38,241 bases of DNA, taken from contig CANDMI010000033.1 of the NCBI GenBank assembly GCA_947385775.1, positions 1-38,241 of the forward strand, in the 5' to 3' direction. The position numbers were made by a program, and so were the translations under genes. The DNA comes from an uncultured Eubacterium sp. GTDB taxonomy: Bacteria; Bacillota; Clostridia; Lachnospirales; Lachnospiraceae. Below, piece after piece: positions 897 to 38,166 of this stretch. The first letter of the stretch is position 1. Each line of letters starts with the position of its first letter. The notes beneath the pieces were generated by a model. That model was not told where the DNA came from and made no database searches. It worked only from the letters and a program-made list of their open reading frames with translations.

Positions 897-986
897 ATTA
901 GTCAGTATTCGCTTTTCATCAATGATGTGCTTTTTTTGCGACGTTTCACTTTTGCCGCAATTCTATTTCTGATAGTAGCATAGAAG

Positions 987-1181
987 TTAATTTGCTTTCG
1001 GTTCTTTTCGCATGAAAATCATCAAAATGATATATATCATCAAACCACTTGAAAAGGCAAAAAACATAAGGATAAAAAGCCAGCGTACAGCTTTAGGGCT
1101 TACATCAAAATACTTTGCCAGACCGCCGCAAACACCAGCAATTATTTTTCCTTTTCTAACTCGATATAATTTTTTCGTCAT
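987..1181 (-). CDS. PspC-domain membrane protein
   Basis: This 64-residue protein matches the PspC domain. It has the basic start MTKKLYRVRKGKIIAGVCGG, then the LAKYFDVSPKAVRWLFIL helix and a hydrophobic segment ending in a positive tail. Stand-alone PspC proteins sit in the membrane and are linked to envelope stress. The ATG at 1181 overlaps the stop of the upstream permease as ATGA, with AAAGGA ahead of it, so the two are probably translationally coupled. As last gene of a bacteriocin-immunity-like operon it may help protect the envelope; that role is inferred. Confidence 0.8.
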   Translation of the reverse strand: MTKKLYRVRKGKIIAGVCGGLAKYFDVSPKAVRWLFILMFFAFSSGLMIYIILMIFMRKEPKAN

Positions 1182-1918
1182 ATATTTTTCCTTTCTTTGT
1201 GATTTAACCCTATCAGTAGCAAAATTGAAAGACAACCGCATAGCAATAGAATTGTGATACTTGCAATCAATTTCTCGGTAGTAGTTTCATAGTAACCCGC
1301 AACACCCATTACCGCCGTAATAGGATAGAAAGCTCTTAAAGCGCCGGACATACTCATAAACATTCCTGCAAAAGAGTACATTTCTGTTAAGATTAGGGCT
1401 AACCAATAGCTTTTCTTTGTATATGTTACTAATGCAATGATAGGAGAAACAGCTAAAAATACGCCTATTCCCTCTAAAAAGTATGTTTTCAAAAAATTTA
1501 AAACCATTCCTGCCGTCAAATCGGAAAAATGTAAACATGCTTCTGTCAAAAAAGTTATTACAAAAAGCAACACATAGACAAATATACTGAAAATAAAAGT
1601 AACAATCAGCTTTGCAATAGTCAATTTTACTTCATTGACAGGAATCAGCCTTAAAGTTTTTATTGTGTCGTCTTGTTCCTCCCGACAAACTATATAACTT
1701 CCCAACAGGGCGATAACAGCGGGAATAACAAGCAAAGTAGCCCAAGGCTGAACCATTGTCATGTACCACCCCGCACTATCAATATACTGTCCCTCTAAAT
1801 CCATACTGTTTCCACCGATAAAAACAACAATAGCAGCTAATACGGTTGCAAATATGGTAAGTAAGGCGATACTTGAGCGACGGAGTTTTTGACGTTCCGC
1901 CCAAAGCAATTTCAGCAT
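1178..1918 (-). CDS. ABC-2-type permease, lantibiotic-immunity family (second subunit)
   Basis: This 246-residue protein has about six hydrophobic segments and the N-terminus typical of MutG/EpiG/BcrB-like subunits, a basic stretch (LLWAERQKLRRSS) before the first membrane helix. These subunits pair with an ATPase to expel or exclude membrane-targeting peptide antibiotics. I place the start at the ATG at 1918 because an AGGTG site precedes it; a GTG three codons upstream is possible. It follows the other permease by 10 bp and overlaps the PspC start. The substrate cannot be told from sequence. Confidence 0.75.
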   Translation of the reverse strand: MLKLLWAERQKLRRSSIALLTIFATVLAAIVVFIGGNSMDLEGQYIDSAGWYMTMVQPWATLLVIPAVIALLGSYIVCREEQDDTIKTLRLIPVNEVKLTIAKLIVTFIFSIFVYVLLFVITFLTEACLHFSDLTAGMVLNFLKTYFLEGIGVFLAVSPIIALVTYTKKSYWLALILTEMYSFAGMFMSMSGALRAFYPITAVMGVAGYYETTTEKLIASITILLLCGCLSILLLIGLNHKERKNI

Positions 1919-1928
1919 TGAACACACC

Positions 1929-2663
1929 TCACTTTCTTTTCAAAGCAATATTAGCAAGCAGAATAAAGATAATATCCCAAACAACAATACAGAGCAATGC
2001 AAATGGAACATTTATCGTCTGTGAAAAAACCAGTCCCGGAATATCGCCCTTTCGCATAATGATAGCCGCTGTTGAACAAACTGGGTGTAGATATATGTTC
2101 GTGTTCATTAAGAAAAATCCTAAGAGGGCATATATCAATGTGATACAGGACGGGAGAATATACCCCTTTGTCATTGTTGCGATTGATAGAATAGGCAATA
2201 TTGCCAAAGCCGTAATCACTCCTATTTCTAAACATCTTTCAAACAAGTACAAAATACTATCCCCGTCAAATCCGATATATCCGGGAAGCATACCAAACGC
2301 CACAGATGCTATTGCAGCAATCAGCATAAAGACGGCCGAATAGAGTAAAGCCATAAAAAACTTGCTGAAAAAATAACTCATTCTGCTTATCGGTACTATC
2401 CAAAGTTGCTTTGTTACGTCATGCTGTTTTTCTTCATAGATAAGCATTACACAAAATATTCCTAATACGACTGGCAAAATAATAAAAAGCGTATAGCCGA
2501 ATGCAGACCACCGATAAAACTCTAACGGGTCTATTCCTGTTTCTCCTTTGTAACGAAACAGCAGCGTTGCGAAAAAAGGCATGATAAGCGCTGCGAGCAG
2601 CATAATCAATAAAAGTTTTCTTCGGCGAAGTTTCAGTAGTTCGGTTTCAATCAATTTAAGCAA
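1929..2663 (-). CDS. ABC-2-type permease, lantibiotic-immunity family (first subunit)
   Basis: This 244-residue protein has a basic amphipathic start (ELLKLRRRK) and six membrane segments, as in MutE/EpiE-type immunity permeases. I place the start at TTG 2663: it lies 8 nt after a GGAGG and makes the usual N-terminus for the family. The upstream ATG at 2711 would lie inside the ATPase gene with no ribosome binding site. The start overlaps the ATPase stop by 8 bp, suggesting coupled translation. It should form the membrane channel with the adjacent permease. Confidence 0.75.
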   Translation of the reverse strand: MLKLIETELLKLRRRKLLLIMLLAALIMPFFATLLFRYKGETGIDPLEFYRWSAFGYTLFIILPVVLGIFCVMLIYEEKQHDVTKQLWIVPISRMSYFFSKFFMALLYSAVFMLIAAIASVAFGMLPGYIGFDGDSILYLFERCLEIGVITALAILPILSIATMTKGYILPSCITLIYALLGFFLMNTNIYLHPVCSTAAIIMRKGDIPGLVFSQTINVPFALLCIVVWDIIFILLANIALKRK

Positions 2664-3579
2664 CGCCTTCCCCTCCTGTAATTTTTTTGAAATAATCCTC
2701 CAATGTATCATTGCAAAGCAGAGAACTCATAACGGTAATATCCTGCATGACAAGTGCCTTGTTGACTTCTCCCATATCAAGGGAAGCGTCATAAAGCCGT
2801 AACGTATGGTCGTCTTGAACAGAATAATCGGTCAAATGGAATTGACGTTCTAAAATCAATGTCGTTTTTGGAATATCGGACACTTGTAACAGGATATATT
2901 TACGGTTTTTCTTTTCCAGTTCCCTCATGCTGCTTTCTTCCAAAAGAACGCCATTATCAATAATTCCAATATCGTCGGCTAACAGTGAGATTTCAGAAAG
3001 AATATGGCTGGATATAAGAATAGTTTTACCCTGTGCCGCACTTAACTCTTTGATAAAATCCCTTACTTCTGCAATTCCGATAGGGTCAAGCCCGTTTGTC
3101 GGTTCGTCCAAAATTAACAATTCCGGGTCATGCAGGATAGCGTTTGCAATCCCAAGCCGCTGTTTCATGCCGAGGGAATATTTACTGAATAGCTTTTTAT
3201 CCTTATAGGGTAATCCAACTATTTCCAGTGCGTTTTTTACTGCATGAGGGGCGGCTGTGCCGCGCAGCTTTGCAAAAATTTCCAGATTTTCCGTTCCGGT
3301 AAGGTTTGGATAAAAACCCGGCGTTTCGATAATTGCACCAATACGGGGATATACTCGTTTTTCCCGTCCTTTGATATTTTTACCGAATACATCCACTTCG
3401 CCGGAAGTAATAGAAGCCAGTCCTAAAATCATTTTCATAATTGTTGTTTTTCCGGCTCCATTACGCCCTAACAGACCATAAACCCGTCCTTTTTTTACAT
3501 GGAGATTTACTTTGCTAACAGCCGTTTGTTCTCCATAGATTTTTGTTAGCTGCTTTGTTTCAATTACTAAATCATTCAT
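2656..3579 (-). CDS. ABC transporter ATP-binding subunit, lantibiotic-protection type
   Basis: This complete 307-residue ATPase has Walker A GRNGAGKTT (about 38-46), the signature SLGMKQR, Walker B LLILDEPTNGLDP and the switch histidine in SSHILSE. The length and C-terminal extension fit the BcrA/MutF-like group, which powers export of or immunity to bacitracin-like or lantibiotic peptides. It is first in an operon with two permeases and PspC, with AAAGGAGG ahead of the ATG. The promoter region carries three 11-bp repeats that are probably bound by the response regulator encoded at 4611-5309. It might instead protect against host antimicrobial peptides. Confidence 0.85.
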   Translation of the reverse strand: MNDLVIETKQLTKIYGEQTAVSKVNLHVKKGRVYGLLGRNGAGKTTIMKMILGLASITSGEVDVFGKNIKGREKRVYPRIGAIIETPGFYPNLTGTENLEIFAKLRGTAAPHAVKNALEIVGLPYKDKKLFSKYSLGMKQRLGIANAILHDPELLILDEPTNGLDPIGIAEVRDFIKELSAAQGKTILISSHILSEISLLADDIGIIDNGVLLEESSMRELEKKNRKYILLQVSDIPKTTLILERQFHLTDYSVQDDHTLRLYDASLDMGEVNKALVMQDITVMSSLLCNDTLEDYFKKITGGEGVA

Positions 3580-3605
3580 AGATTTTTCCTCCTTTTGTAC
3601 TCCCT

Positions 3606-3648
3606 ATTATAAATCAGTAACCTTGCCATAACCTTGCCGATACCTTGC
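3606..3648 (-). promoter_or_regulatory. Activator-type promoter with three 11-bp direct repeats
   Basis: On the minus strand a perfect TATAAT (3611-3606) lies about 27 bp before the ATPase start codon. No consensus -35 box is present. In its place GCAAGGTTA-like units end at 3618, 3629 and 3640 with an exact 11-bp period (two of TAACCTTGC and one of ATACCTTGC on the plus strand). Head-to-tail repeats of about one helical turn overlapping -35 are typical of OmpR-family activators, so this is probably the site of the adjacent response regulator. Confidence 0.7.
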
Positions 3649-3670
3649 TTTTTTCATGTTTTATCAAGAA

Positions 3671-3697
3671 AAAGCCCCGTATTTTTTACAGGGCTTT
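3671..3697 (-). terminator. Terminator at the end of the histidine kinase gene
   Basis: AAAGCCC pairs with GGGCTTT around a 13-nt loop, followed on the minus strand by CTTTTTC. The kinase stop codon (3686-3688) lies inside the loop. This separates the two-component transcript from the ABC operon, which has its own promoter. Confidence 0.65.
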
Positions 3698-4609
3698 CGG
3701 AAATAATATGGTAAATTTAGTCCCATTGCCGAAATTGCTTTCGGCGGTGATGGTTCCTTTGTGAACGCTGATAAGTTCCTTTGTAATCGCCAGACCTAAT
3801 CCGTTTCCTTTTGCAGACCGCGACTGGTCGCACTGGTACATTCTTTCAAAGATATGTGGGAGATTGTCGGAAGTTATCCCCTTTCCATTATCCCAGATTA
3901 TAATTTTAGCTTGTTGCATATCCTCGTAAATGTGCAATTCCATTTTGTCTCCCTCACTGTGAATGATAATGTTTTGCAAAAGGTTATTAAGGACGCGGGT
4001 ATATGCGTTTACGTCTATACGGATAAAATACTCTGTTTCGGGTATGACAAATTCATATTCAAAATGATTGTTTTCTAAGACAAAAACCCAATCCGCTATA
4101 ATGTTGCGGGATAGTTCATTCAAATCTATTTTTTCAAAATGAAAAATCTGCTCCCCGGAATCCAGTTTTACCCACTCAAACAGATTTTCCACAAAGGATT
4201 TCAGATATTGCGCCTTTTCATGTGCGACATGGATATATTCGTCTTTTTCCTCCCCAGTGACTATTTTGTTTTCAACCGCTTCCAAATAACCCACAAGGGA
4301 AGCAAGCGGGGTTTTTACATCATGTGAAAGGCTTGTCATCAGCCGTTTATATGCCTGTTCAGATTGTCTTTGCCGTATAAGCTGTGCTTGGCTGTTTACG
4401 GCTATTTCGTTAATACCATAGCAAATTTTCTTTGTCATATCGTTTTCACCTGCTAAAATACGTCGGTTCAAGTTTCCACCCTTTATGTCCTCTAAGGCGT
4501 CTTTTATCAGCGCAAGCTGTGTTCGCACACGTCGTAATGCAGCAATGAGGTACACAATGATAAGCAGCATGAAAGCTAACACTATGAAAAGATAAACATT
4601 TATGTTCAT
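3686..4609 (-). CDS. Sensor histidine kinase
   Basis: This is a 307-residue membrane histidine kinase. It has a single N-terminal membrane helix (about residues 7-25), a short HAMP-like linker, the H-box SLSHDVKTPLASL with phospho-acceptor His96, an N-box (NNLLQNIIIHS), and the G boxes WDNGKGI and GNGLGLAI. There is essentially no extracellular sensor loop, as in kinases that sense cell-envelope antibiotics within the membrane or through a partner transporter. The start is ATG 4609, directly after the regulator stop, with GGAGG upstream. A longer frame would overlap the regulator and lacks a ribosome binding site. The neighbouring ABC transporter is its likely regulatory target. Confidence 0.85.
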   Translation of the reverse strand: MNINVYLFIVLAFMLLIIVYLIAALRRVRTQLALIKDALEDIKGGNLNRRILAGENDMTKKICYGINEIAVNSQAQLIRQRQSEQAYKRLMTSLSHDVKTPLASLVGYLEAVENKIVTGEEKDEYIHVAHEKAQYLKSFVENLFEWVKLDSGEQIFHFEKIDLNELSRNIIADWVFVLENNHFEYEFVIPETEYFIRIDVNAYTRVLNNLLQNIIIHSEGDKMELHIYEDMQQAKIIIWDNGKGITSDNLPHIFERMYQCDQSRSAKGNGLGLAITKELISVHKGTITAESNFGNGTKFTILFPKAL

Positions 4610-6022: not shown

Positions 6023-7105
6023 ATGGAAGATATAGAATATATGAAGCTGGCGCTGGCGCTGGCGGAAAAAGGGGAGGGGTGGACGTCGCCGAATCCGATG
6101 GTGGGGGCGGTCATTGTCAAAGACGGCCAGATCATTGGGCAGGGATACCACGAACGCTACGGGGGGCTTCATGCTGAACGAAATGCGCTTTTATCCTGCA
6201 CGAAATCTCCAAAGGGCGCGCAAATGTATGTGACGCTGGAGCCATGCTGCCATTATGGGAAACAGCCGCCTTGCGTGGAAGCGGTTTTGGAGGCGGGCAT
6301 CCGGCGGGTAGTTGTTGGCTCCCATGATCCGAACCCTTTGGTAAGCGGGAAAGGAATCCGCATTTTGCGGGAGCATGGCGTGGAAGTGGCAGAGCATGTG
6401 TTGGAGGAAGAATGCGACCGGTTAAATGAAGTATTTTTTCATTATATCCGTACTAATATGCCGTTTGTGGTCATGAAGTATGCTATGACGCTGGATGGAA
6501 AAATTGCGGCGTATACCGGGGAATCCAAATGGGTGACAGGGGAGGCTGCAAGGGAGCATGTGCACAGACAGAGACATCGGTACCGGGCGATTTTGGCAGG
6601 GGTTGGGACGGCGCTTGCGGACGACCCATTGCTGACCTGCCGAATGGAAGGCGGGAGAAATCCGGTGCGTATCGTTTGCGATACGAGGCTTCGGACGCCG
6701 CTTACATCTAAGATCATTGCGACAGCGGGGGAGGCTGCGACTGTTATTGCGACCTGCTGCGGGGATGAAAAAAAGCAGCTTCCTTATCAGGAGGCGGGGG
6801 CGCATATTTTATGCCTGCCGGAAAAAAACGGGCATGTGGATTTGCGGGCATTGATGGAACGGCTTGGGCAGGCAAACATTGACAGCGTGCTGATCGAAGG
6901 CGGCGGCACCCTGCACTGGTCGGCGCTGGAAAGCGGGATTGTGCAAAAAGTGCAGGCTTATATCGCGCCAAAACTTTTTGGCGGGGAGACGGCAAAAACG
7001 CCGGTGGAAGGCGCCGGATTCCCGTCCCCGGCTAAGGCGGTTAAGCTAAAAAGCAGTTCTGTGATAAAAATCGGGGAAGATTACCTGGTGGAAGGGCTGT
7101 TATAA
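6023..7105 (+). CDS. ribD: Bifunctional riboflavin deaminase/reductase RibD
   Basis: This 360-residue enzyme carries out the second and third steps of riboflavin synthesis. The N-terminal deaminase (about 1-145) has the zinc site residues in HAERNAL and EPCCHYGKQPPC. The C-terminal reductase (about 147-360) has MKYAMTLDGKIA and a Gly-rich LIEGGGTLH. The length is normal for the family. The ATG has a GGGGGC site about 5 nt upstream. It is the first gene after the FMN riboswitch and terminator, followed 35 bp later by ribE, so it should be repressed when FMN is plentiful. Confidence 0.95.
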   Translation: MEDIEYMKLALALAEKGEGWTSPNPMVGAVIVKDGQIIGQGYHERYGGLHAERNALLSCTKSPKGAQMYVTLEPCCHYGKQPPCVEAVLEAGIRRVVVGSHDPNPLVSGKGIRILREHGVEVAEHVLEEECDRLNEVFFHYIRTNMPFVVMKYAMTLDGKIAAYTGESKWVTGEAAREHVHRQRHRYRAILAGVGTALADDPLLTCRMEGGRNPVRIVCDTRLRTPLTSKIIATAGEAATVIATCCGDEKKQLPYQEAGAHILCLPEKNGHVDLRALMERLGQANIDSVLIEGGGTLHWSALESGIVQKVQAYIAPKLFGGETAKTPVEGAGFPSPAKAVKLKSSSVIKIGEDYLVEGLL

Positions 7106-7140
7106 ATGGTTACTGGCAGAACAGGAAATGAGGTGCGCGT

Positions 7141-7791
7141 ATGTTTACAGGTATCGTAGAAGAGATCGGGACGATCAGGCAGGTTGAAATGGGCAGGCAT
7201 TCCGCTGTGCTGCATATTGACGCAAAGGAGATACTTACAGACATCCATATAGGGGACAGCATTGCGGTAAACGGGGTCTGTCTGACGGTGACGGCTCTGC
7301 GCGCGGACGGGTTTGCGGCGGACGCTATGCATGAAACCTTAAACCGCACGACGCTTGCGGCGTTAAAAAATGGGAGCCATATAAACCTGGAGCGGGCGAT
7401 GGCGGCGGACGGCAGGTTTGGCGGACATATTGTGGCGGGGCATGTGGACGGAGTCGGAACGATTGTAAAATTACAGCGGGACGATACGGCTGTCTGGTAT
7501 ACGGTTCAGGCGCCGCCGACCATTATGCGCTATATTATAGAAAAAGGCTCCATTGCGGTGGACGGAATCAGCCTTACGGTGGCAAAGGTGTCTGCGGACA
7601 GCTTTTCGGTGTCCGTAATCCCCCATACGGTACGGGTTACGGCGCTTGGGGAGCGAAAAACGGGGGATAAGGTGAACCTGGAAAATGATATGATCGGGAA
7701 ATATGTGGAAAAGCTGCTGGGGAAAGATGCGGCTGCGGAAGCCACGCAGAGCGCGTTGACCAGGGAGTTTTTAATAAAGCATGGATATTAA
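7141..7791 (+). CDS. ribE: Riboflavin synthase alpha subunit
   Basis: This 216-residue enzyme joins two lumazine molecules to make riboflavin and a pyrimidinedione. The start MFTGIVEEIG is the family hallmark. The two lumazine-binding repeats can be seen at about residues 1-95 (SIAVNGVCLTV) and 97-195 (SIAVDGISLTV). It is complete, with AGGTG upstream of the ATG, and lies between ribD and ribBA in the riboswitch-controlled operon. RibH supplies its substrate. Confidence 0.95.
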   Translation: MFTGIVEEIGTIRQVEMGRHSAVLHIDAKEILTDIHIGDSIAVNGVCLTVTALRADGFAADAMHETLNRTTLAALKNGSHINLERAMAADGRFGGHIVAGHVDGVGTIVKLQRDDTAVWYTVQAPPTIMRYIIEKGSIAVDGISLTVAKVSADSFSVSVIPHTVRVTALGERKTGDKVNLENDMIGKYVEKLLGKDAAAEATQSALTREFLIKHGY

Positions 7792-7846
7792 GCTATAGAA
7801 ATTAAAATAATTAAGTTGCAGCAATTAAGCTTTAGGAGGATAAGTC

Positions 7847-9046
7847 ATGCATCAGTTTGATACGGTGGAGCAGGCGTTAGAGGATTTGAAAAAGGGGCGT
7901 ATTATTTTAGCGACGGATGACCCAGAGAGGGAAAATGAGGGGGATTTTATCTGCGCCGCCCAGTTTGCGACGACGGAAAACATTAATTTTATGGCGACTC
8001 ACGGGAAGGGGCTTATCTGTATGCCGATGTCGGAGGAGTATGTGACGAAATTGCAGATTCCTCAGATGGTTGCGGATAATACGGATAACCATGAAACGGC
8101 GTTTACGGTTTCCATTGACAGCGTGGATACGACGACGGGCATTTCCGCCGCGGAGCGTTCCATTACGGCGATGCGCTGTGTGGCGGACGATGTAAAGCCC
8201 CAGGATTTTCGCAGGCCGGGGCATATGTTTCCGCTTTTGGCAAAGAAAAACGGGGTGTTGGAGCGTAACGGGCATACGGAGGCGACTGTGGATTTATGCC
8301 GTCTGGCGGGGCTTAAGGAATGCGGGTTGTGCTGTGAGATTATGCGGGAGGACGGCACGATGATGCGCACCACAGAGCTGATGGAGCTGGCAAAGCAGTG
8401 GAATCTTACGTTTATTACGATCCAGGATCTGCAAAACTACCGCAAATGCCATGAGAAGCTGGTGGAGCGGGTTGCGATCACGAAGCTTCCGACAAAATAC
8501 GGAGATTTCAGGGCCTATGGCTATGTCAATCAGCTAAACGGAGAGCACCATGTCGCGTTAGTCAAAGGGGATATCGGGGATGGTAAGAACGTCCTTTGCC
8601 GTGTACATTCGGAATGCCTGACTGGGGATACCTTTGGCTCCCTTCGCTGCGACTGCGGGCAGCAGCTCCATGCGGCTATGCGCCAGATTGAAAAAGAAGG
8701 CCGGGGCATTTTGCTCTACATGCGCCAGGAGGGACGGGGCATCGGCCTGATCAATAAACTGCGGGCATATGAGCTTCAGGAGCGCGGGATGGATACGTTA
8801 GAAGCAAACCTGGCGCTTGGATTTGAAGGGGATGAGCGAGAATATTACATCGGCGCGCAGATCCTTCGGGATTTGGGTGTGCGCAGCCTGCGGCTTTTGA
8901 CAAACAACCCGGATAAGCTTTATCAGCTATCGGAGTTTGGCATGGAAATTTTGCACCGTGTGCCGATTCAGGTGGATGCTACAAAGTATGATCTGTTTTA
9001 TTTAAAAACAAAACAGAACCGGATGGGGCATATGCTGGGCTTATAA
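7847..9046 (+). CDS. ribBA: Bifunctional DHBP synthase / GTP cyclohydrolase II
   Basis: This 399-residue fusion makes both starting units of riboflavin. The N-terminal half (about 1-200) is 3,4-dihydroxy-2-butanone 4-phosphate synthase, with the acidic metal site in [10 protein letters not shown]. The C-terminal half (about 205-399) is GTP cyclohydrolase II, with the zinc cysteines in [14 protein letters not shown] and the GTP loop RQEGRGIGL. Both active sites look intact. AGGAGG precedes the ATG. A 138-bp gap separates it from ribH; I see no terminator there. Confidence 0.95.
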
Positions 9047-9184
9047 TGGGCCGGGATTCACGAGAAAGTGACGGTTGTAATTTTCCTGGCAGTTAGGGAC
9101 TGACGCAGAAAAAGACGAGAGATATGGCAGGTTATTTCAGGGCAGTTTTGTTTACGTTTAAATAAAAAGAAAGGCAGGAAGGAA

Positions 9185-9652
9185 ATGAAAGTATTAGAAG
9201 GAAAACTGGTTTCGGAAAAAATAAAAATCGGGATCGTGGCGGCGCGGTTTAATGAATTTATTACCTCAAAGCTGCTTAGCGGCGCGGTGGACGCTCTTGT
9301 GCGGCACGATGTAAAGGAAGAGGATATTGAGGTGGCATGGGTGCCGGGGGCGTTTGAGATTCCGCTTATCGCGTCAAAGATGGCAGGCAGCGGGAAGTAC
9401 GACGCGGTGATCTGCCTTGGGGCGGTTATCCGGGGAAGCACCACCCACTATGATTATGTATGCAATGAGGTTTCCAAGGGCATCGCCCAAGTTTCGCTCT
9501 CCAGCGGCATTCCGGTGATGTTTGGCGTGCTGACGACGGAAAATATTGAACAGGCCATTGAGCGGGCAGGCACAAAGGCAGGGAATAAAGGGTATGACTG
9601 TGCGCTTGGGGCAATTGAGATGGTCAATTTAATCCGGGAAATAAATTCCTAA
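9185..9652 (+). CDS. ribH: Lumazine synthase
   Basis: This 155-residue enzyme condenses dihydroxybutanone phosphate with the ribityl-pyrimidine to give lumazine. Family landmarks are [17 protein letters not shown] at the start, VPGAFEIPL, the loop [20 protein letters not shown] with its catalytic histidine, and [16 protein letters not shown]. It has normal length, an AAGGAAG ribosome binding site, and is the last biosynthetic gene of the operon. A phosphopantetheinyl transferase follows 24 bp later. Confidence 0.95.
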
Positions 9653-9676
9653 AAGTTTTTGAAGGAAAAAGGCGGT

Positions 9677-10357
9677 ATGGTCACGGTATATACTTTTTCT
9701 ATCGAAAACCTGCCTGACCCGGCCGGGGAGCCTGGCGTAATGGCGCGCCTGCCAAAGGAGCGCACAGAAAAAATATTAAAATACCGCTGTGAGCCTGACC
9801 GGAAAAGGAGTCTTGGCGCGGGGCTGCTCCTTTTGGAGCTGCTGCCGCGCTATGGAGCGGATATAAAGGACATCCGAATATCGGCGGATGGAAAACCGGA
9901 GGCGGAGGGTGTATTTTTTAATCTGTCCCATTCCGGCGGTTATGTCATATGCGCGGTTGGGGACCGGCCGGTGGGATGTGACGTAGAGCAGGTAAAAAAA
10001 GCCCCGGGGCGGGTTGCGGAGCATTTTTTTTGCGAAAGCGAGATCGCATATATAAATATGGCGGAAAGCGGGCGGCGGGATCAGGCTTTTTTCCGGATCT
10101 GGACGATGAAAGAAAGCTATATGAAAATGACCGGGGAAGGGATGCGGCTGCCGCTGAATGAGTTTGAAATTTTATTATCTTCGCCGAAAGCAATCCGGGT
10201 TCGCAGGGCGGGGAAGTTACAGCCCTGCCGCATTTGTTGCTTTGAGCTTCCTGGCTATCAGATAAGCGTATGCTATATGGGGAGCAAGGATTTGGAAAAA
10301 AGCCCGGCAGAGGAAGTAACGCTGCAAGCGTTTCATTGGGCTGGAAACCTGTGGTAG
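9677..10357 (+). CDS. Sfp-type 4'-phosphopantetheinyl transferase
   Basis: This 226-residue protein carries the two family signatures: FNLSHSGGYVICAV followed by VGCDVEQV with the magnesium-binding Asp-x-Glu, and IWTMKESYMKMTGEG with the WxxKES motif. Enzymes of this type move phosphopantetheine from CoA to carrier proteins. I chose ATG 9677, which has AAGGCGG upstream; a TTG at 9659 would add six residues. No carrier-protein or synthase gene is in the window, so its partner lies elsewhere. It appears to ride on the riboflavin transcript, an unusual pairing. Confidence 0.85.
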   Translation: MVTVYTFSIENLPDPAGEPGVMARLPKERTEKILKYRCEPDRKRSLGAGLLLLELLPRYGADIKDIRISADGKPEAEGVFFNLSHSGGYVICAVGDRPVGCDVEQVKKAPGRVAEHFFCESEIAYINMAESGRRDQAFFRIWTMKESYMKMTGEGMRLPLNEFEILLSSPKAIRVRRAGKLQPCRICCFELPGYQISVCYMGSKDLEKSPAEEVTLQAFHWAGNLW

Positions 10358-22823: not shown

Positions 22824-23204
22824 ATGATTCCAAAGGTTTCGGATTCGGAACTGGAGATTTTAAAAATCATCTGGGCAAACGGGGGGAGCGCGCTGTATGC
22901 TAAGATTATGGGGGAGCTTTTAAAAACGGGGCGCGCCTGGCAGAAAAATACTGTGATCACGCTCTTATCCAGGCTGGCGGAAAAGGGAATGGTAAAGGCC
23001 AAAAAGATCGGGCGGCGCAACGAGTATACCGCCATCGTATCAGAAAAAGACTATCAGGCCGCACAGACCCAGACCCTAGTAAACAAGCTGTATGAGGGAA
23101 GCGCAAAAGGGCTTGTGGCGACATTGATCCAAAGGGATATGATCTCGCCCGGGGACTATGAGGAACTGAAAAGGTTTTGGGAAAGCGGGGCAAAGGAAGA
23201 ATGA
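22824..23204 (+). CDS. BlaI/MecI-family repressor
   Basis: This 126-residue protein is a BlaI/MecI/CopY winged-helix repressor. It opens with the family phrase VSDSELEILKIIWANGG and has the recognition helix WQKNTVITLLSRLAEKGMV (about 41-59), a wing (RRNEYTAIVS) and a C-terminal dimerisation helix. Repressors of this group are inactivated by cleavage after a membrane M56 peptidase senses a signal. Here the peptidase gene overlaps it by 4 bp (ATGA). AAAGGAGG lies 8 nt before the ATG. No beta-lactamase is nearby. Confidence 0.9.
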   Translation: MIPKVSDSELEILKIIWANGGSALYAKIMGELLKTGRAWQKNTVITLLSRLAEKGMVKAKKIGRRNEYTAIVSEKDYQAAQTQTLVNKLYEGSAKGLVATLIQRDMISPGDYEELKRFWESGAKEE

Positions 23205-25366
23205 ACCGTATTTTTAAATTGGTTTTTTCCATGTCCTTATCCGGTTCGATGCTGATCCTTACTCTGTTTATTTTAAGGCCGCTTTACAAAAACCGGACGG
23301 GCAGGCGGTGGCAGTATTATATCTGGCTTGTCGTTATTGGTCGCCTGCTTTTGCCGTTTTCGCCGAAAGAAAGCTTATCGGGGACTTTGGCGGACCGGCT
23401 TTGGCAGTCTGTTTCCCAGGAGTCGTCCGGGCTGGATGCTGATTTTGATTCCGGAGAGGATTTCGTAGATGATTCTGGAAATGATTCTGAAAATGACTTC
23501 GAAAATGATTCTGGGGGTGATTCCCCGCAGGCGCCTGACAAAGAAAATGCCACGGCGGATTTTTCAGGCTCTTTAAAAGCTTTCGTCCAAAATAAAGACG
23601 GTTCAAGCATGGGAGAAAAGGCGGCGAAAGAAGCGGAACTGGAAAAAGCGGAAGATTTGTTTTCCCATTTGTGGATGGTATGGATTGGGGTGGCGGCGTT
23701 GCTGCTTATGCGAAAGGCCACGATTTACCAAAGCTATGTGAAATACATAAAAGCCGGGCGAAAGGAGGTTTCTAATGTGCGGCTGCTGGATACGCTTTCG
23801 CAGGTTGGGGAGCGGGTCGGAGTAAAGCGCCCGGTGGAGCTGTATGTGAATGAAATGGCTTCTAGCGCGATGTTGTTGGGCTTTTTTCGGCCCTGTATCG
23901 TGCTTCCCTGCGCGGATTTGCGGGAGGAGCATTTTTTGTATACCGTATGGCATGAGCTGTCCCATTATAAACGGCTTGACCTGATTTACAAATGGCTTGT
24001 GCAGCTGACGATATGCGTTCACTGGTTTAATCCGTTTGTCTGGATGATGGGACGCGAACTGGGGCGCGCCTGCGAGCTGGCGTGTGATGAAGCGGTCATT
24101 TGCAGGCTTGATGGGGATGGGCGTATCGCTTACGGGGATACGCTGTTAGAAGCGCTAAAGGCAGGCGTAAGCTGTAAAAATCCCGGTTCTGCGGTTATGC
24201 TAAGCAAGGATGCAAAGCAATTAAAAGAAAGGTTGTGGACGATCATGAATTTTAAGAAACGCTCAAAATTAACGGTTTTTTTGTCCGGCGCGCTTACCGC
24301 GGCTTTGCTTGTGGGCGCGACAACAGCCGGGGCTGCGGTTACGGACGAAGCAGGCGGGGAGAAAGTGACTGCGCCGATCAGCCTAAAAAACGTAAAGGAT
24401 GGAGATTATGCCTGGATCGGAACCTATGATTTATCTGAAAACGACAAGGTTTATTATAAGGTTTCAGCAAAAGGCGGCAAGCAGCTGTCTGTCGGTTTTG
24501 CAAAACCCGGAGACGATCATCCGGACACGACTTATGTTACGGTGTGCAATGAGAGACAGGATGGAAACTTGGAGGCGGTTTGCGGCCCGTATATTTGGAA
24601 AAGTCCGCTCAAACCCGGGAAATACCGTCTGTTTGTGCATGCAAAGGGCGCGGATTTAAAAAACGTGGAAGGAGCGGCGGTAATCGTAAAAAAAGAATCA
24701 GCGCAATTGGATACAAGGATACAGACTTTGGCGGCTAAAAACGTAGATCGCTCGGCGGAATATGCCAGCTTTGGCATCACAGCCAATGGAAAGGCGCACT
24801 ATTATAAGGACAGCCGCATTCGTATTTTTCAGGATATGAAAGCAGACCGTTCGTTTGAATATAGCTTTATAGACCGGAAAGGAACCGTCGATATCCGTTT
24901 GCTCCGGGGGAAAAGCGGGGCGGTAAATGCATTGGAGCTTATCCCAAAAGCGCAAGCCAATGAAATTTTGAAGGATTTATTTGGCAACGTTCCATCCAAT
25001 CAAAAGACAGGGAAGGAAAAAGCCGCCGGAAAAGCAAAGAAAACCGTTACGAAAGCAAAGAAGCCTTTGGAATATACGGATGTTTTGCGCTGCGATAGGG
25101 AGAATCTGCCGTCTGGCTTACAGGGGATATTGGAGAACAAATGCAAGGGCAGACGCTGGTATGTAATTCGGACCGCGGACAGGCAGTATGTATATTTTAA
25201 CAATCTGCCACGAGATTATGCGTTCCATATTTCCGGGAAAAAACTGTATGTGCGCGATATGGGTAGGCATACTGGCGTTTGTGTGCTGTTGTCTTTGGGA
25301 AAAGACGTGGATTTTTCATTATATTATAATGACAGGAAGGTTCGATTCACTTCGATCGATGTGTAA
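23201..25366 (+). CDS. M56 (BlaR1/MecR1-like) membrane sensor peptidase with unusual sensor domain
   Basis: This 721-residue membrane metallopeptidase has N-terminal membrane helices, a zinc motif HELSH (His251-Glu252-x-x-His255) and the distal ECACDE-like ACELACDEAV. A further membrane helix lies near residue 365. The roughly 340-residue extracytoplasmic C-terminus does not show the SxxK and KTG motifs of the penicillin-binding sensor of BlaR1, so it probably senses something else. An acidic Asp/Ser/Asn-rich loop (about 80-110) lies between the second and third helices. ATG 23201 overlaps the repressor stop. An upstream start would sit inside the repressor gene. Confidence 0.8.
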   Translation: MNRIFKLVFSMSLSGSMLILTLFILRPLYKNRTGRRWQYYIWLVVIGRLLLPFSPKESLSGTLADRLWQSVSQESSGLDADFDSGEDFVDDSGNDSENDFENDSGGDSPQAPDKENATADFSGSLKAFVQNKDGSSMGEKAAKEAELEKAEDLFSHLWMVWIGVAALLLMRKATIYQSYVKYIKAGRKEVSNVRLLDTLSQVGERVGVKRPVELYVNEMASSAMLLGFFRPCIVLPCADLREEHFLYTVWHELSHYKRLDLIYKWLVQLTICVHWFNPFVWMMGRELGRACELACDEAVICRLDGDGRIAYGDTLLEALKAGVSCKNPGSAVMLSKDAKQLKERLWTIMNFKKRSKLTVFLSGALTAALLVGATTAGAAVTDEAGGEKVTAPISLKNVKDGDYAWIGTYDLSENDKVYYKVSAKGGKQLSVGFAKPGDDHPDTTYVTVCNERQDGNLEAVCGPYIWKSPLKPGKYRLFVHAKGADLKNVEGAAVIVKKESAQLDTRIQTLAAKNVDRSAEYASFGITANGKAHYYKDSRIRIFQDMKADRSFEYSFIDRKGTVDIRLLRGKSGAVNALELIPKAQANEILKDLFGNVPSNQKTGKEKAAGKAKKTVTKAKKPLEYTDVLRCDRENLPSGLQGILENKCKGRRWYVIRTADRQYVYFNNLPRDYAFHISGKKLYVRDMGRHTGVCVLLSLGKDVDFSLYYNDRKVRFTSIDV

Positions 25367-27355: not shown

Positions 27356-27384
27356 TAATATTGTCGCATTTTAATTGGAAATAT
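27356..27384 (-). promoter_or_regulatory. Shared 29-bp promoter-like element ahead of the secreted serpin
   Basis: On the minus strand the element contains AATGCGACAATATTA preceded by ATATTTCCAA. It matches the element ahead of the sigma factor (29688-29716) at 28 of 29 positions and ends 43 bp before the serpin start codon. This spacing suits a promoter with a short leader. It is probably the site of the ECF sigma factor encoded at 29078-29635. Confidence 0.65.
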
Positions 27385-27470
27385 GAAATAACATTAGGAA
27401 AAAATTTCATTCTATACAGCTGCATGATACCATAGGCGTGACACAAAGTCTATTTGTTTCTAAAGGCTGT

Positions 27471-29081
27471 TTACGGCTGGTTTACGATACCTAAAAACAG
27501 CGGCTGTCCATCCCTGTCTGTCACGGCAAATAAGAATGGGCGGTCAAGCGTAAAGTCGATCTCCTTATCCGGCGGCATGGCGGAGCCGGTGTCTGCGCCG
27601 ATCACGGTATAGGAAGCGGCGGTTACGCCCTGTTCATCAATGGCTACCCGCGCGGCATGGTCCGCCTGGGACAGGGCGAGCTTATCTGGCTTGCCGGCCA
27701 TTGGGGAAAAGTCGGCCCGGTTTGCGCTATAGATATCGGTAACGCCAAGCTCCATCAGTCCTTCTTTTAAGTCATATTCGCAAGTGACGTCAAATTTTGG
27801 GATGGCAAGGTTTACCAGCAGGCTTTTTTGGTTTTCCCAGTTTTCCTGGTTGTCTGGCTGTAAAAATGCCATCGCCTCGTTATCATTTAATAAATCTTCC
27901 GCAGTTACGCCCTCATCTGGGAGCAGGAACCACATAGAGCCGGACTGCTCCAGCCCTTCGCAGACGGCGGAAAATTTTTCTCCCCAATAATAACTATGGC
28001 TGGATTTATATTTGTGCAAAAATTCGCAGACAGAATCGCCGGCTGCTGCATGAAAGGTTCCTTCTTTTGTATATTTTGAAGAAAATTCATTCCGCCATTG
28101 GGCGTGATAATTTAGCGTGACAGCCAGAGCCATCGCTGTATCCGGCTTTAACGTTACGTCAGCGGCCTGTTTTTCCAAAAGCCCTCCGGTCTGTTCATTC
28201 AGCCAGTCTTGAAGCGCTTTGTTAAAGCTTTTGGAGCCCATTTTGCCCTGATAGGAGGATGCATAGTAATATTTTGCGAGCGTATTTAATACTGGCTGGT
28301 GAAACTCTACGTCATCGTTCAGCCATAAGGAGCTTGCAAGGATGCTGGTTACAAGGCCGTCATCGCGATAATGGGCATTCCATATATCGGAAGCCTGTTT
28401 TCGAAGCGATGCAACCGAATCGCTGCCAAGCAGGTCAAGGATTTGCCGTCTGCTGTTTCCGTCTGTCAGCTCTGCCAGCATTCCAAGAGCCATATAAGCC
28501 CCTAACGGGGAGTAGACGCGGTTTTCCTTTTTTTCATTGGCGCCGGACAGAAAGCATTTTGCGCTGGCGGATGAAAAACCGGACAGTTTGCGGACGGAGG
28601 ATGATTCGGAAAGTTTACGGCGCGCGCTGACATCCTCCCACCATGCGTCATATGCTTTTGTATATGCGTTAGCGTCTAAGGCGCCCTCGGTTTCGCCAGC
28701 CCCGTCAGAAGCGTCGGGGGAGTCCGGTATCGTGCTGGTATCATCGGAAATACTGTCGGATTCCGGTATGGAGCCATTGTCATTGGAGCCGTCGGCGGCT
28801 TGTCCGCCATCGGAGTCATCGAAATAATCGGCTTCATTTGGGTACTTTGCCATTTGCGGGTATTCCGCCTTTGCCAGGGTGCGCGCGTTGGCAGGCGTGA
28901 TGCTTTCGATCGGAAATAAGGCAAAGCCTGCGATCGCGGAAACCGCCAATATGGCGGCAATGGCGGCAAGTCGTTTTATGTATGTGAAACGAACATGCAG
29001 ATGCGCGGAATCGGTTATCAGGTCGTCTCGGATATCGGTGATGCCGTCATAAAGATTTTCACTTTTTCGCGTCCGGTTCAT
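27471..29081 (-). CDS. Membrane-anchored serpin with an anti-sigma-like cytoplasmic N-terminus
   Basis: In this 536-residue protein, residues 1-35 are cytoplasmic and include NLYDGITDIRDDLITDSA, which resembles the short segment at the N-terminus of membrane proteins paired with clostridial ECF sigma factors. A membrane helix follows at about 38-57. A Ser/Asp/Gly-rich spacer (about 85-135) leads to an outward-facing serpin domain (about 165-536) with NRVYSPLGAYMALGML and the loop hinge EQGVTAASYT from Glu483, putting P1 at about Gly499 (GSA). Its ATG overlaps the sigma stop as ATGA. The likely role is a protease trap that also holds the sigma factor. The anti-sigma function is inferred. Confidence 0.8.
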   Translation of the reverse strand: MNRTRKSENLYDGITDIRDDLITDSAHLHVRFTYIKRLAAIAAILAVSAIAGFALFPIESITPANARTLAKAEYPQMAKYPNEADYFDDSDGGQAADGSNDNGSIPESDSISDDTSTIPDSPDASDGAGETEGALDANAYTKAYDAWWEDVSARRKLSESSSVRKLSGFSSASAKCFLSGANEKKENRVYSPLGAYMALGMLAELTDGNSRRQILDLLGSDSVASLRKQASDIWNAHYRDDGLVTSILASSLWLNDDVEFHQPVLNTLAKYYYASSYQGKMGSKSFNKALQDWLNEQTGGLLEKQAADVTLKPDTAMALAVTLNYHAQWRNEFSSKYTKEGTFHAAAGDSVCEFLHKYKSSHSYYWGEKFSAVCEGLEQSGSMWFLLPDEGVTAEDLLNDNEAMAFLQPDNQENWENQKSLLVNLAIPKFDVTCEYDLKEGLMELGVTDIYSANRADFSPMAGKPDKLALSQADHAARVAIDEQGVTAASYTVIGADTGSAMPPDKEIDFTLDRPFLFAVTDRDGQPLFLGIVNQP

Positions 29082-29635
29082 AGGCAGACTCCTTCCTTTT
29101 CTAAGTATAGTTTTAATTTTTTTCGAAGCCGGAACAGACGTTGGGATATTTGGTTTGGGGATGAGCCGTATTCAGCCGCCAGGGCGTTTACGGCATCGCC
29201 ATACCAGTAGCGGCGGACAAATAAGGCGCGGTCGTCCTGCTTTAAAGAGTCCAGCCAGACATCCAAAAGCCCGGCAAGCTCTTTTCGATCGATTTCTTGT
29301 TGGACGTTATCTGACACCGGCACGCACTCGTCCAGCTCGGACAACAGGACTTCCATGCCGCGATAGCGTTTTTTTGCATGGCAGGCGCGCCAGCGGCTGA
29401 TAGACAGGTTGCGCGTGATCCGTCCCAAAAACGCCCCAAGCGCTCTTGGGCGGTCAGGCGGCATACGCTTCCATGCGGCAAACCAGGTATCGTTAACGCA
29501 TTCCTCCGCATCCTCTTTCACGCTTAGAATATTAAAAGAGATGCGACGGCACAAAGGGCCGTATTTGCGGTCGCTTTCTGTAATTGCCTGTTCGTTGCGG
29601 CTATAGTAAAGATTGATGATCTGGCTGTCTTCCAT
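29078..29635 (-). CDS. ECF sigma-70 family RNA polymerase sigma factor
   Basis: This 185-residue sigma factor has region 2 (about 20-75, with EDAEECVNDTWFAAWKRMP for -10 binding) and region 4 (about 125-180, with a helix-turn-helix at AVNALAAEYGSSPNQISQRL). There is no region 1.1 or 3, as expected for ECF factors. ATG 29635 is followed by a serpin that overlaps its stop by 4 bp, a pairing usual for sigma and anti-sigma genes. The upstream region has the same 29-bp element as the second serpin gene, suggesting autoregulation. Expected target: a regulon of at least these two units. Confidence 0.9.
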   Translation of the reverse strand: MEDSQIINLYYSRNEQAITESDRKYGPLCRRISFNILSVKEDAEECVNDTWFAAWKRMPPDRPRALGAFLGRITRNLSISRWRACHAKKRYRGMEVLLSELDECVPVSDNVQQEIDRKELAGLLDVWLDSLKQDDRALFVRRYWYGDAVNALAAEYGSSPNQISQRLFRLRKKLKLYLEKEGVCL

Positions 29636-29687: not shown

Positions 29688-29716
29688 TAATATTGTCGCA
29701 TTTTATTTGGAAATAT
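29688..29716 (-). promoter_or_regulatory. Shared 29-bp promoter-like element ahead of the ECF sigma gene
   Basis: This matches the element ahead of the secreted serpin at 28 of 29 positions. On the minus strand it ends 52 bp before the sigma ATG. The core is ATGCGACAATATTA. Its presence before both genes suggests positive autoregulation by the sigma factor. Confidence 0.65.
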
Positions 29717-29831
29717 TGAGGGGAAAATATATTTTTGGTGATTTTTTCTGCTTTAATATTGTAACGACTCTGCTAATCCACAGCGCCTAAGATGGGCGAA
29801 AAGGCGGCAGGAAAAGCGATAGAAGATTTCA

Positions 29832-37540: not shown

Positions 37541-37677
37541 GGGGAGCAAGTTTCACTTGCATGGACTCCTGCGGCAGACAAAATGGAAAACGACAATTCC
37601 CCTTCGCAGGCTGCGCTTGCTACCCTTTAGTGAACTTTGCGCCCCACTACCCTGTCGGCAGAATGTAGGTGTTGCGT

Positions 37678-38166
37678 ATGGGTAATGTCACGAAACAGGC
37701 AAGCACACGTTTTTCCATAGTCAAGCGGAGCAAGGGGCAGTCGGCAGTTGAGAAAGCGTCCTATATCAGCAGGAGTGTTCTTGTCAGCGAGTTTGACGGG
37801 CAGACCTACCGCCCGAAATACCATGAGGATTTAGTGCATAGTGAAATCACTCTCCCACCCAATGCGCCCAAAGAATATGCAGACCGAGCCACCTTATGGA
37901 ACGCTGTTGAACTGTCAGAGAAAGGGCAGAAATCACAGCTTGCGAGAATGTTAAAAGCGTCACTCCCCAACGAATGGAGTTACGAACTTGCGGAGGAAGT
38001 TGTGAGGGATTATGTGCAGAGGAATTTTGTGTTAAGCCATATGTATTTGCTGAACTTGTCCGGGAAGTGGGAAAATTTTATAACACATGTTTGCTTGTTG
38101 TGGAAAAGCTATCCGCTGGATATACTGTTGTTGACAAGCTATATGATTCCAACAACAGGTACATAA
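37678..38166 (+). pseudogene. MobA/MobL-family relaxase, truncated by a foreign junction
   Basis: The first about 115 residues (QASTRFSIVKRSKGQSAVEK, then ASYISR, YHEDLVHSEITLPPNAP) match the N-terminus of MobA/MobL relaxases, which nick oriT for mobilization. After VRDYVQRNFV the family sequence (normally SKGMCADFAIH and a histidine cluster) stops abruptly. The frame runs on with unrelated residues to a stop at 38166. I chose ATG 37678 because TAGGTG precedes it. Without the HUH metal site the product would be inactive. The break is at about 38022-38034. Confidence 0.7.

Follow-up and report, generated by a model that had tools for sequence, protein, structure and literature searches.

The window, by which we mean the whole 38,241-nucleotide stretch of DNA that was analysed, carries on its reverse strand a gene for an ECF sigma factor, directly followed by a gene for a membrane-anchored serpin and, further downstream, by a second serpin gene. 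The features discussed below are:

29690..29717, minus strand: promoter-like element MATATTT-N11-SCGWCWNTAT, upstream of the sigma gene
29078..29635, minus strand: ECF sigma factor gene, 185 aa (open reading frame and family profiles)
27471..29081, minus strand: gene for the membrane-anchored serpin and predicted anti-sigma factor, 536 aa (open reading frame and Pfam)
29004..29063, minus strand: conserved cytoplasmic segment, the predicted sigma-binding part, residues 7-26 with LYDGITDIRDDLI as core
28911..28970, minus strand: single hydrophobic membrane helix, about residues 38-57 (hydropathy and reading of the sequence, hydropathy of homologues)
28884..28892, minus strand: A-x-A motif (ANA, residues 64-66), a weak, possible signal-peptidase-like site
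28839..28862, minus strand: clade-specific tail YPxMAxYP between membrane helix and serpin, residues 74-81
27474..28538, minus strand: serpin domain, residues 182-536 (PF00079, profile positions 17-370 of 370, E 2.8e-59)
27570..27635, minus strand: reactive-centre loop, with the hinge from Glu483 (P17) and a small residue near P1, about Gly499-Ser500
27358..27385, minus strand: the same promoter-like element upstream of the second serpin gene, its only other exact match in the genome
25531..27312, minus strand: second serpin gene, 593 aa, with a signal-peptide-like N-terminus and without the anti-sigma segment; predicted regulon member

The sigma and serpin genes share the bases ATGA at 29078-29081, exactly the 4-bp overlap reported in a first-pass annotation made from the sequence alone, and an AAGGAG lies 5' of the serpin ATG. 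Both Sigma70_r2 (E 7.5e-10) and TIGR02937 (sigma70-ECF, E 3.2e-17) matched the sigma factor over their cut-offs, and region 4 (PF04545, PF08281) fell under the Pfam cut-off. The 536-aa protein begins with a cytoplasmic part of about 37 residues containing LYDGITDIRDDLI, followed by a single hydrophobic helix, a linker and a complete serpin, so that the domain order given in the annotation was also borne out, by Pfam (PF00079) for the serpin and by hydropathy and reading of the sequence for the helix. Serpin was the only domain that Pfam reported in this protein at E up to 0.05. By sequence the serpin domain is full length, and comparison with the PDB returned 195 distinct sequences at E<=0.001, headed by conserpin (9.7e-34).

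Serpin matches were found in 11 of 13 genomes of the same genus, seven of which carry the sigma and serpin genes side by side. All seven pairs share the ATGA overlap, a later in-frame start being also possible in one of them (L011), and G012, with a partial serpin of this clade where a contig ends, could be an eighth case. The sigma homologues of the six other same-genus genomes are 69-72% identical to that of the window. In the cytoplasmic segment of the seven proteins L10, I14, T15, I17, R18, D19 and L21 are invariant, and their L-I-I-L spacing is compatible with a single side of a predicted helix. The stretch from this segment to the membrane helix differs greatly in length.

A scan of named genomes, with an alignment of the seven genus proteins as the query, gave 49 loci and from these 36 sigma-serpin pairs, which belong to Lachnospiraceae, Oscillospiraceae (e.g. 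Flavonifractor, Pseudoflavonifractor and Faecousia) and other Clostridia; Flavonifractor sp. An112 (L106) and Pseudoflavonifractor phocaeensis An507 (L094) are two of the carriers. Six of the 36 are apparently the same contigs as in six of the genus genomes, and one (L095) has a sigma gene cut by the contig end. The set leaves out 17 serpin ORFs lacking an intact adjacent sigma gene, including L107, L119 and L128, in which the reading frame of sigma or serpin is broken or weak. The overlap is as in the window in 27 of the 36 pairs (25 ATGA, 2 GTGA) and the other nine lie at offsets of -20 to +25; start codons were picked by a script favouring the overlap position, and other in-frame starts are possible in L011, L064, L065 and L069. 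One of the two scan patterns was the N-terminal motif itself, which biases the scan towards pairs; the other, serpin-derived pattern is also present in 33 of the 36. Among the best 30 loci of the same family (that of the window included) a sigma gene lies directly upstream in 13, a number that takes in the window, L176 (29-bit sigma match), L200 (20-base gap) and L182 (92-base gap); L185 is unpaired in this count and paired under the rule used for the tree below, and some of the 30 repeat loci from the named genomes. Strong whole-protein matches (E <= 1e-60), some of them unpaired, occur in 54 of 397 genomes of the family and 16 of 391 of the class. An additional serpin of the same clade stands beside the sigma-serpin pair in L087, L101 and L126; that in L126 has nearly the same membrane helix as its paired neighbour and is without the cytoplasmic segment.

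In a FastTree phylogeny of 130 serpin domains, 85 sequences including these serpins formed a clade separated from 45 generic serpins at full local support. A sigma gene of the window's family lies directly upstream of 46 of the 85 clade serpins and of none of the 45 generic ones, which rules out chance adjacency; two generic serpins (L036, L056) lie near such a sigma gene, though not directly behind it. Within the clade the tree requires a minimum of 20 changes of pairing state, ten or more of them forced by strongly supported branches, with L095, L107 and L119 counted as unpaired despite sigma remnants. A loosely defined lipobox-like pattern occurs in 21 of the 39 unpaired and 9 of the 46 paired clade serpins, and in 29 of the 45 generic serpins. 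Since 39 of the 85 have no intact sigma gene directly upstream and 21 of these are lipobox-like, a serpin of this clade can exist without the sigma gene, and members of the clade seem to stay on the cell surface by either of two predicted routes, as lipoproteins or as anti-sigma proteins. The tail YPxMAxYP is shared by paired (37/46) and unpaired (28/39) members and is found in no generic serpin (0/45).

Two loci in other genera show a different arrangement, in which a generic serpin gene adjoins a sigma/anti-sigma pair of the same family (L077 in G256, 985-3699; L076 in G213, 6896-10055). There the anti-sigma protein is separate and non-serpin, in one case with an I66 peptidase-inhibitor match that stays below threshold (E 0.0098). 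Serpin-like sequences 27-28% identical to the window serpin also occur in two unannotated phage records from human faecal samples (MT835777.1 and MT835510.1). A phage origin was considered and ruled out, these two records matching at no more than that identity, over about two thirds of the query.

All 13 genus genomes encode further sigma factors of the window's family, and their partners offer a comparison for the cytoplasmic segment. Forty such paralogous places were fetched, 32 of them scoring above 200 bits, and in 31 of the 32 the next gene follows at the same overlap. The partner proteins have a similar N-terminal segment (e.g. MNSKDLYDAIGALDDDILEQSE), a hydrophobic helix and non-serpin outer domains; four partners submitted to Pfam gave no outer domain above the cut-off, and the fifth tested was a serpin fragment. 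A profile HMM of the serpin-type N-termini placed 17 of the 32 non-serpin partners above all 824 decoy ORFs, and the remaining 15 score no higher than the top decoy, an ORF that is a sigma partner too, from a different genus. With the decoys identified as sigma partners (L036 and L056) removed afterwards, the best decoy scores 7.9 bits and 22 of the 32 partners exceed it. Between helix and YP tail, an A-x-A-type match is present in 29 of the 36 serpin homologues and unmatched in seven, and a looser form of it matched 27 of the 32 non-serpin partners; near the membrane this pattern appears to be common and unspecific, and we treat it as weak evidence.

Divergence of the 20-residue segment was then compared with sigma-factor divergence and with the divergence of the fused serpin across the window and 35 pairs (36 rows, 31 after near-copies were dropped). 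Over the 31 pairs the segment follows the sigma factor (r 0.79, partial 0.78-0.79, permutation p 0.0002) and not the serpin to which it is fused (r 0.20-0.21, partial -0.09 to -0.10, permutation p 0.87). The membrane helix is intermediate (partial 0.26 with sigma, 0.17 with serpin), the 30 residues outside it follow the serpin (0.37, against 0.06 with sigma), and no partial above 0.26 with sigma was obtained for any of 18 serpin windows of 20 columns. The tracking therefore switches from sigma to serpin at the membrane helix. It is retained when the genus is left out (24 pairs; 0.78 for sigma, -0.05 for serpin) and when ranks are used for all 31 pairs (0.66 and 0.02). Linkage and exchange of serpin ectodomains by recombination could by themselves give such tracking without contact, because no other part of the gene lies closer to the sigma gene than the segment. 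Even under such an exchange, segment and sigma factor would have remained coupled while ectodomains were replaced.

The gene pair and its domain order are thus real and conserved in many Clostridia. The survey suggested in the first-pass annotation, for ECF genes followed by N-terminally anchored serpins, yielded the 36 pairs across Clostridia, 27 of them with the same overlap, and the free variation of neighbouring genes that would have spoken against its reading was not seen; adjacency is conserved, though 39 of 85 clade serpins stand apart from a sigma gene. Its proposal of an anti-sigma segment at the N-terminus has good, if indirect, support on comparative grounds, because the adjacency is kept and because the segment resembles that of the non-serpin partners and tracks the sigma factor rather than the serpin. 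The segment is not a class I anti-sigma domain (ASDI); a recognisable ASDI has as a rule more than 50 residues according to the available text of PMC7406223, and here the cytoplasmic part has about 37 and Pfam reports Serpin only.

The sigma gene and the second serpin gene are preceded by nearly identical 34-base stretches. The element that these share with the upstream regions of the other genus pairs is bipartite, MATATTT and SCGWCW separated by eleven bases, with equal spacing in all eight copies. Its pattern has two matches in the window's genome, upstream of these two genes. A shorter form matched nine times in the 13 genus genomes, against four matches for a reversed-pattern control; seven of the nine lie upstream of the sigma gene in the seven pair-bearing genomes, one upstream of the second serpin and one in a genome without the pair. 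The pattern was drawn by eye from aligned genus sequences, and its longer form includes the window's two copies; the shorter form is what the six other genomes alone give, though the window's copies were already known when it was drawn up. Among the 36 scanned pairs the element is found upstream of the sigma gene in seven, six of the genus and one outside it (L110), with L095 offering no upstream sequence to search, and it was not found at the 40 paralogous sigma loci. No repeats were detected in the two intergenic stretches, each of which was compared only within itself. The CGAC/CGTC part of the element resembles the -10 elements of Firmicutes ECF promoters. With the element upstream of both genes, transcription of the sigma-serpin operon most likely depends on the sigma factor itself, as does, in this species, that of a second inhibitor, the second serpin.

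The second serpin, encoded downstream of the sigma-serpin pair, is 54% identical to the membrane-anchored serpin over 472 residues, and the two genes account for all serpin matches in the 3.98-Mb assembly (96% complete). Neither this gene nor the upstream element that it shares appears in the first-pass annotation of the pair. At about residues 50-165 it has an extra N-terminal stretch without a Pfam match, which is common to several serpins of the genus (L012, L021, L009, L017 and L010; two from G003). Converging on its gene at 22824-25366 (plus strand) are a BlaI-like repressor and then a BlaR1-type M56 metalloprotease sensor. The latter may be another envelope sensor, since Pfam reports no penicillin-binding domain in it. 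A match to a MobA/MobL-type relaxase at 37669-38166 (plus strand), close to the contig end, suggests a mobile element beside the region. Elsewhere in the same genome, a sigma paralogue on contig C94 (L079, 2869-3189, minus strand) matches over its first part only and is possibly a broken gene, and on contig C39 a 631-aa ORF (L080, 5340-7232, minus strand) resembles the window's sigma family over its first ~90 residues; a hydrophobic helix and a long outer domain follow, so that a piece of a sigma factor seems to have been joined to an anti-sigma-like protein.

Serpins act as covalent traps, and the hinge of inhibitory members is marked by Glu at P17, Gly at P15 and small residues at P12-P9. 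Reactive loops were compared in the window protein and 36 homologues (37 loops) under an assumption of equal length, the actual lengths being 29-32 residues and 30 in 28 of the 37. Glu at P17 and Gly at P15 are present in all 37 and Ala at P12 in 36, and P11 and P10 fit the hinge consensus in nearly all. P9 is Tyr or Phe in 36 loops and P14 is Val in 27, both of which we take to be departures from that consensus. At P1, 36 of the 37 have Ala, Gly, Ser or Thr, whereas P5 and P3 vary strongly. Conservation of P17, P15 and P12 suggests that the serpin mechanism has been kept, and the protein is likely to be inhibitory; with the small P1 and variable P5 and P3, the loops fit an inhibitor of elastase-like proteases.

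Based on these observations, we propose that the serpin protein is a single-pass anti-sigma factor with a protease-trapping sensor, in which attack leads to regulated intramembrane proteolysis, release of the sigma factor and production of more inhibitor, a reading that we regard as probable, if not firmly so. A cytoplasmic amphipathic helix would hold the ECF sigma factor, as its evolution indicates. A serine protease outside the cell, probably one preferring a small P1 (elastase-like), would attack the reactive loop, and the ensuing rearrangement of the serpin could disturb the tail between serpin and membrane and make it accessible to initial cleavage, either by signal peptidase or by the protease that attacked the loop. 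A site-2 protease might then remove the anchor and free the sigma factor, as for RsiV. Judging from the shared element, the freed sigma factor is predicted to transcribe its own operon and the second serpin gene, placing more inhibitor on or around the cell. We suggest, by analogy with tengpin, whose N-terminal tail binds the serpin body and stabilises its native state (PMC8233489), that loop insertion could release the YPxMAxYP tail and pull on the membrane tether. The window's genome has one Peptidase_M50 (site-2 protease) gene, which is simply permissive because all 14 control genomes carry one too.

Alternatively, the protein may be a true anti-sigma factor that answers to another signal, e.g. 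membrane stress, and displays the serpin only as an effector that the sigma factor keeps supplied. The evidence for an anti-sigma segment is silent on what is sensed, the partners of paralogous sigma factors carry unrelated outer domains, and the main predicted target of the sigma factor is the serpin operon itself. However, variation among the paralogous systems falls on the outer domain, which is where a sensor would be expected to vary, and RsiV is an example of an inhibitor that also senses (PMC5014341); we therefore consider this alternative unlikely, though of some weight. It is more doubtful that signalling is a matter of simple proteolysis, in which any cut in linker or loop would shed the serpin and start intramembrane proteolysis, loop insertion being unneeded. 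This would suit the long, flexible and probably protease-sensitive linkers of L097, L114, L116 and L127 and the presence of a site-2 protease gene, but linkers are short in most of the homologues listed and the hinge residues P17, P15 and P12 are conserved. That the segment is just the long start of a signal peptide, with a secreted serpin and a sigma factor that is a neighbour without direct contact, is very improbable in spite of the A-x-A-like motifs after the helix and the many unpaired relatives that look secreted or lipidated, given that the segment tracks the sigma factor, resembles that of the non-serpin partners and is not seen in unpaired lipoprotein-like relatives, and that the adjacency is conserved.

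The other half of the first-pass proposal, release of the sigma factor on protease attack through loop insertion or shedding, is an inference; a sensing serpin stands, by analogy with known systems, as the most economical reading. In its wider form, the irreversible shape change of a serpin would be the input of a transmembrane receptor that traps a protease, reports this through its tether and induces its own replacement together, in this species, with a second serpin, the serpin ectodomain being mounted on an interchangeable sigma/anti-sigma cassette; we regard this generalisation as evenly poised. Serpins have been studied mainly as inhibitors, and here one would serve as the input side of a genetic switch. 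For gut commensals, which are surrounded by host elastases, the pair supplies named genes and a predicted promoter for possible protease sensing. If the proposal is true, a protease-sensing circuit has spread through gut Clostridia, with serpin ectodomains placed on a standard sigma/anti-sigma cassette. The ECF system of these Clostridia appears modular, one short cytoplasmic segment serving several kinds of outer domain, and this should help to decode uncharacterised sensors.

The first-pass annotation knew of no bacterial system with a serpin as sensor, and we likewise found none, nor any paper on a serpin with a sigma or anti-sigma partner, in the open-licence literature, outside which most subscription journals lie. 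Several known systems share parts of the arrangement. The siropins of Eubacterium siraeum, serpins of a gut bacterium, act against human neutrophil elastase and proteinase 3 as inhibitors (PMC5127057); the available text of that paper lacks the terms transmembrane and signal peptide, and has 'sigma' only as a supplier's name. In Bifidobacterium breve, another gut bacterium, transcription of the serpin operon is induced by proteases (PMC8012564, citing Alvarez-Martin 2012), but regulation is by a separate two-component system, and the serpin is not described as a sensor in the available part of that source. Tengpin (PDB 2pee, 2vh4) is likewise a bacterial serpin with an N-terminal tail, whereas the tail of the window protein leads to a membrane helix; the tengpin match starts at residue 174 and so excludes the tail. 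A very short anti-sigma domain is known from CnrY, a class II anti-sigma factor with two helices (PMC7406223, in part); the window segment has about 37 residues and one obvious helix, and the two are likened by description only.

The use of one anti-sigma design with differing outer sensor domains is shared with the RsgI/SigI systems of Clostridium thermocellum, which, as far as the available text of PMC3413522 and PMC3990059 goes, sense carbohydrate. The window protein does not belong to the RsgI family, as Pfam finds no RsgI-type domain in it and its sigma factor matches TIGR02937. The closest precedent is RsiV of Bacillus subtilis, which both inhibits and senses lysozyme and is then cut by signal peptidase and RasP (PMC5014341, PMC6066255, in their available parts), and the RsiV/SigV system is reported from C. 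difficile as well (PMC9044953). The window protein is not a member of the RsiV family, since Pfam finds PF00079 alone and no DUF4179; RsiV answers to lysozyme through a non-serpin domain, whereas here the outer domain is a serpin. What the two would have in common is the single-pass form of the anti-sigma factor and an outer domain that is inhibitor and sensor of a host defence enzyme at once.
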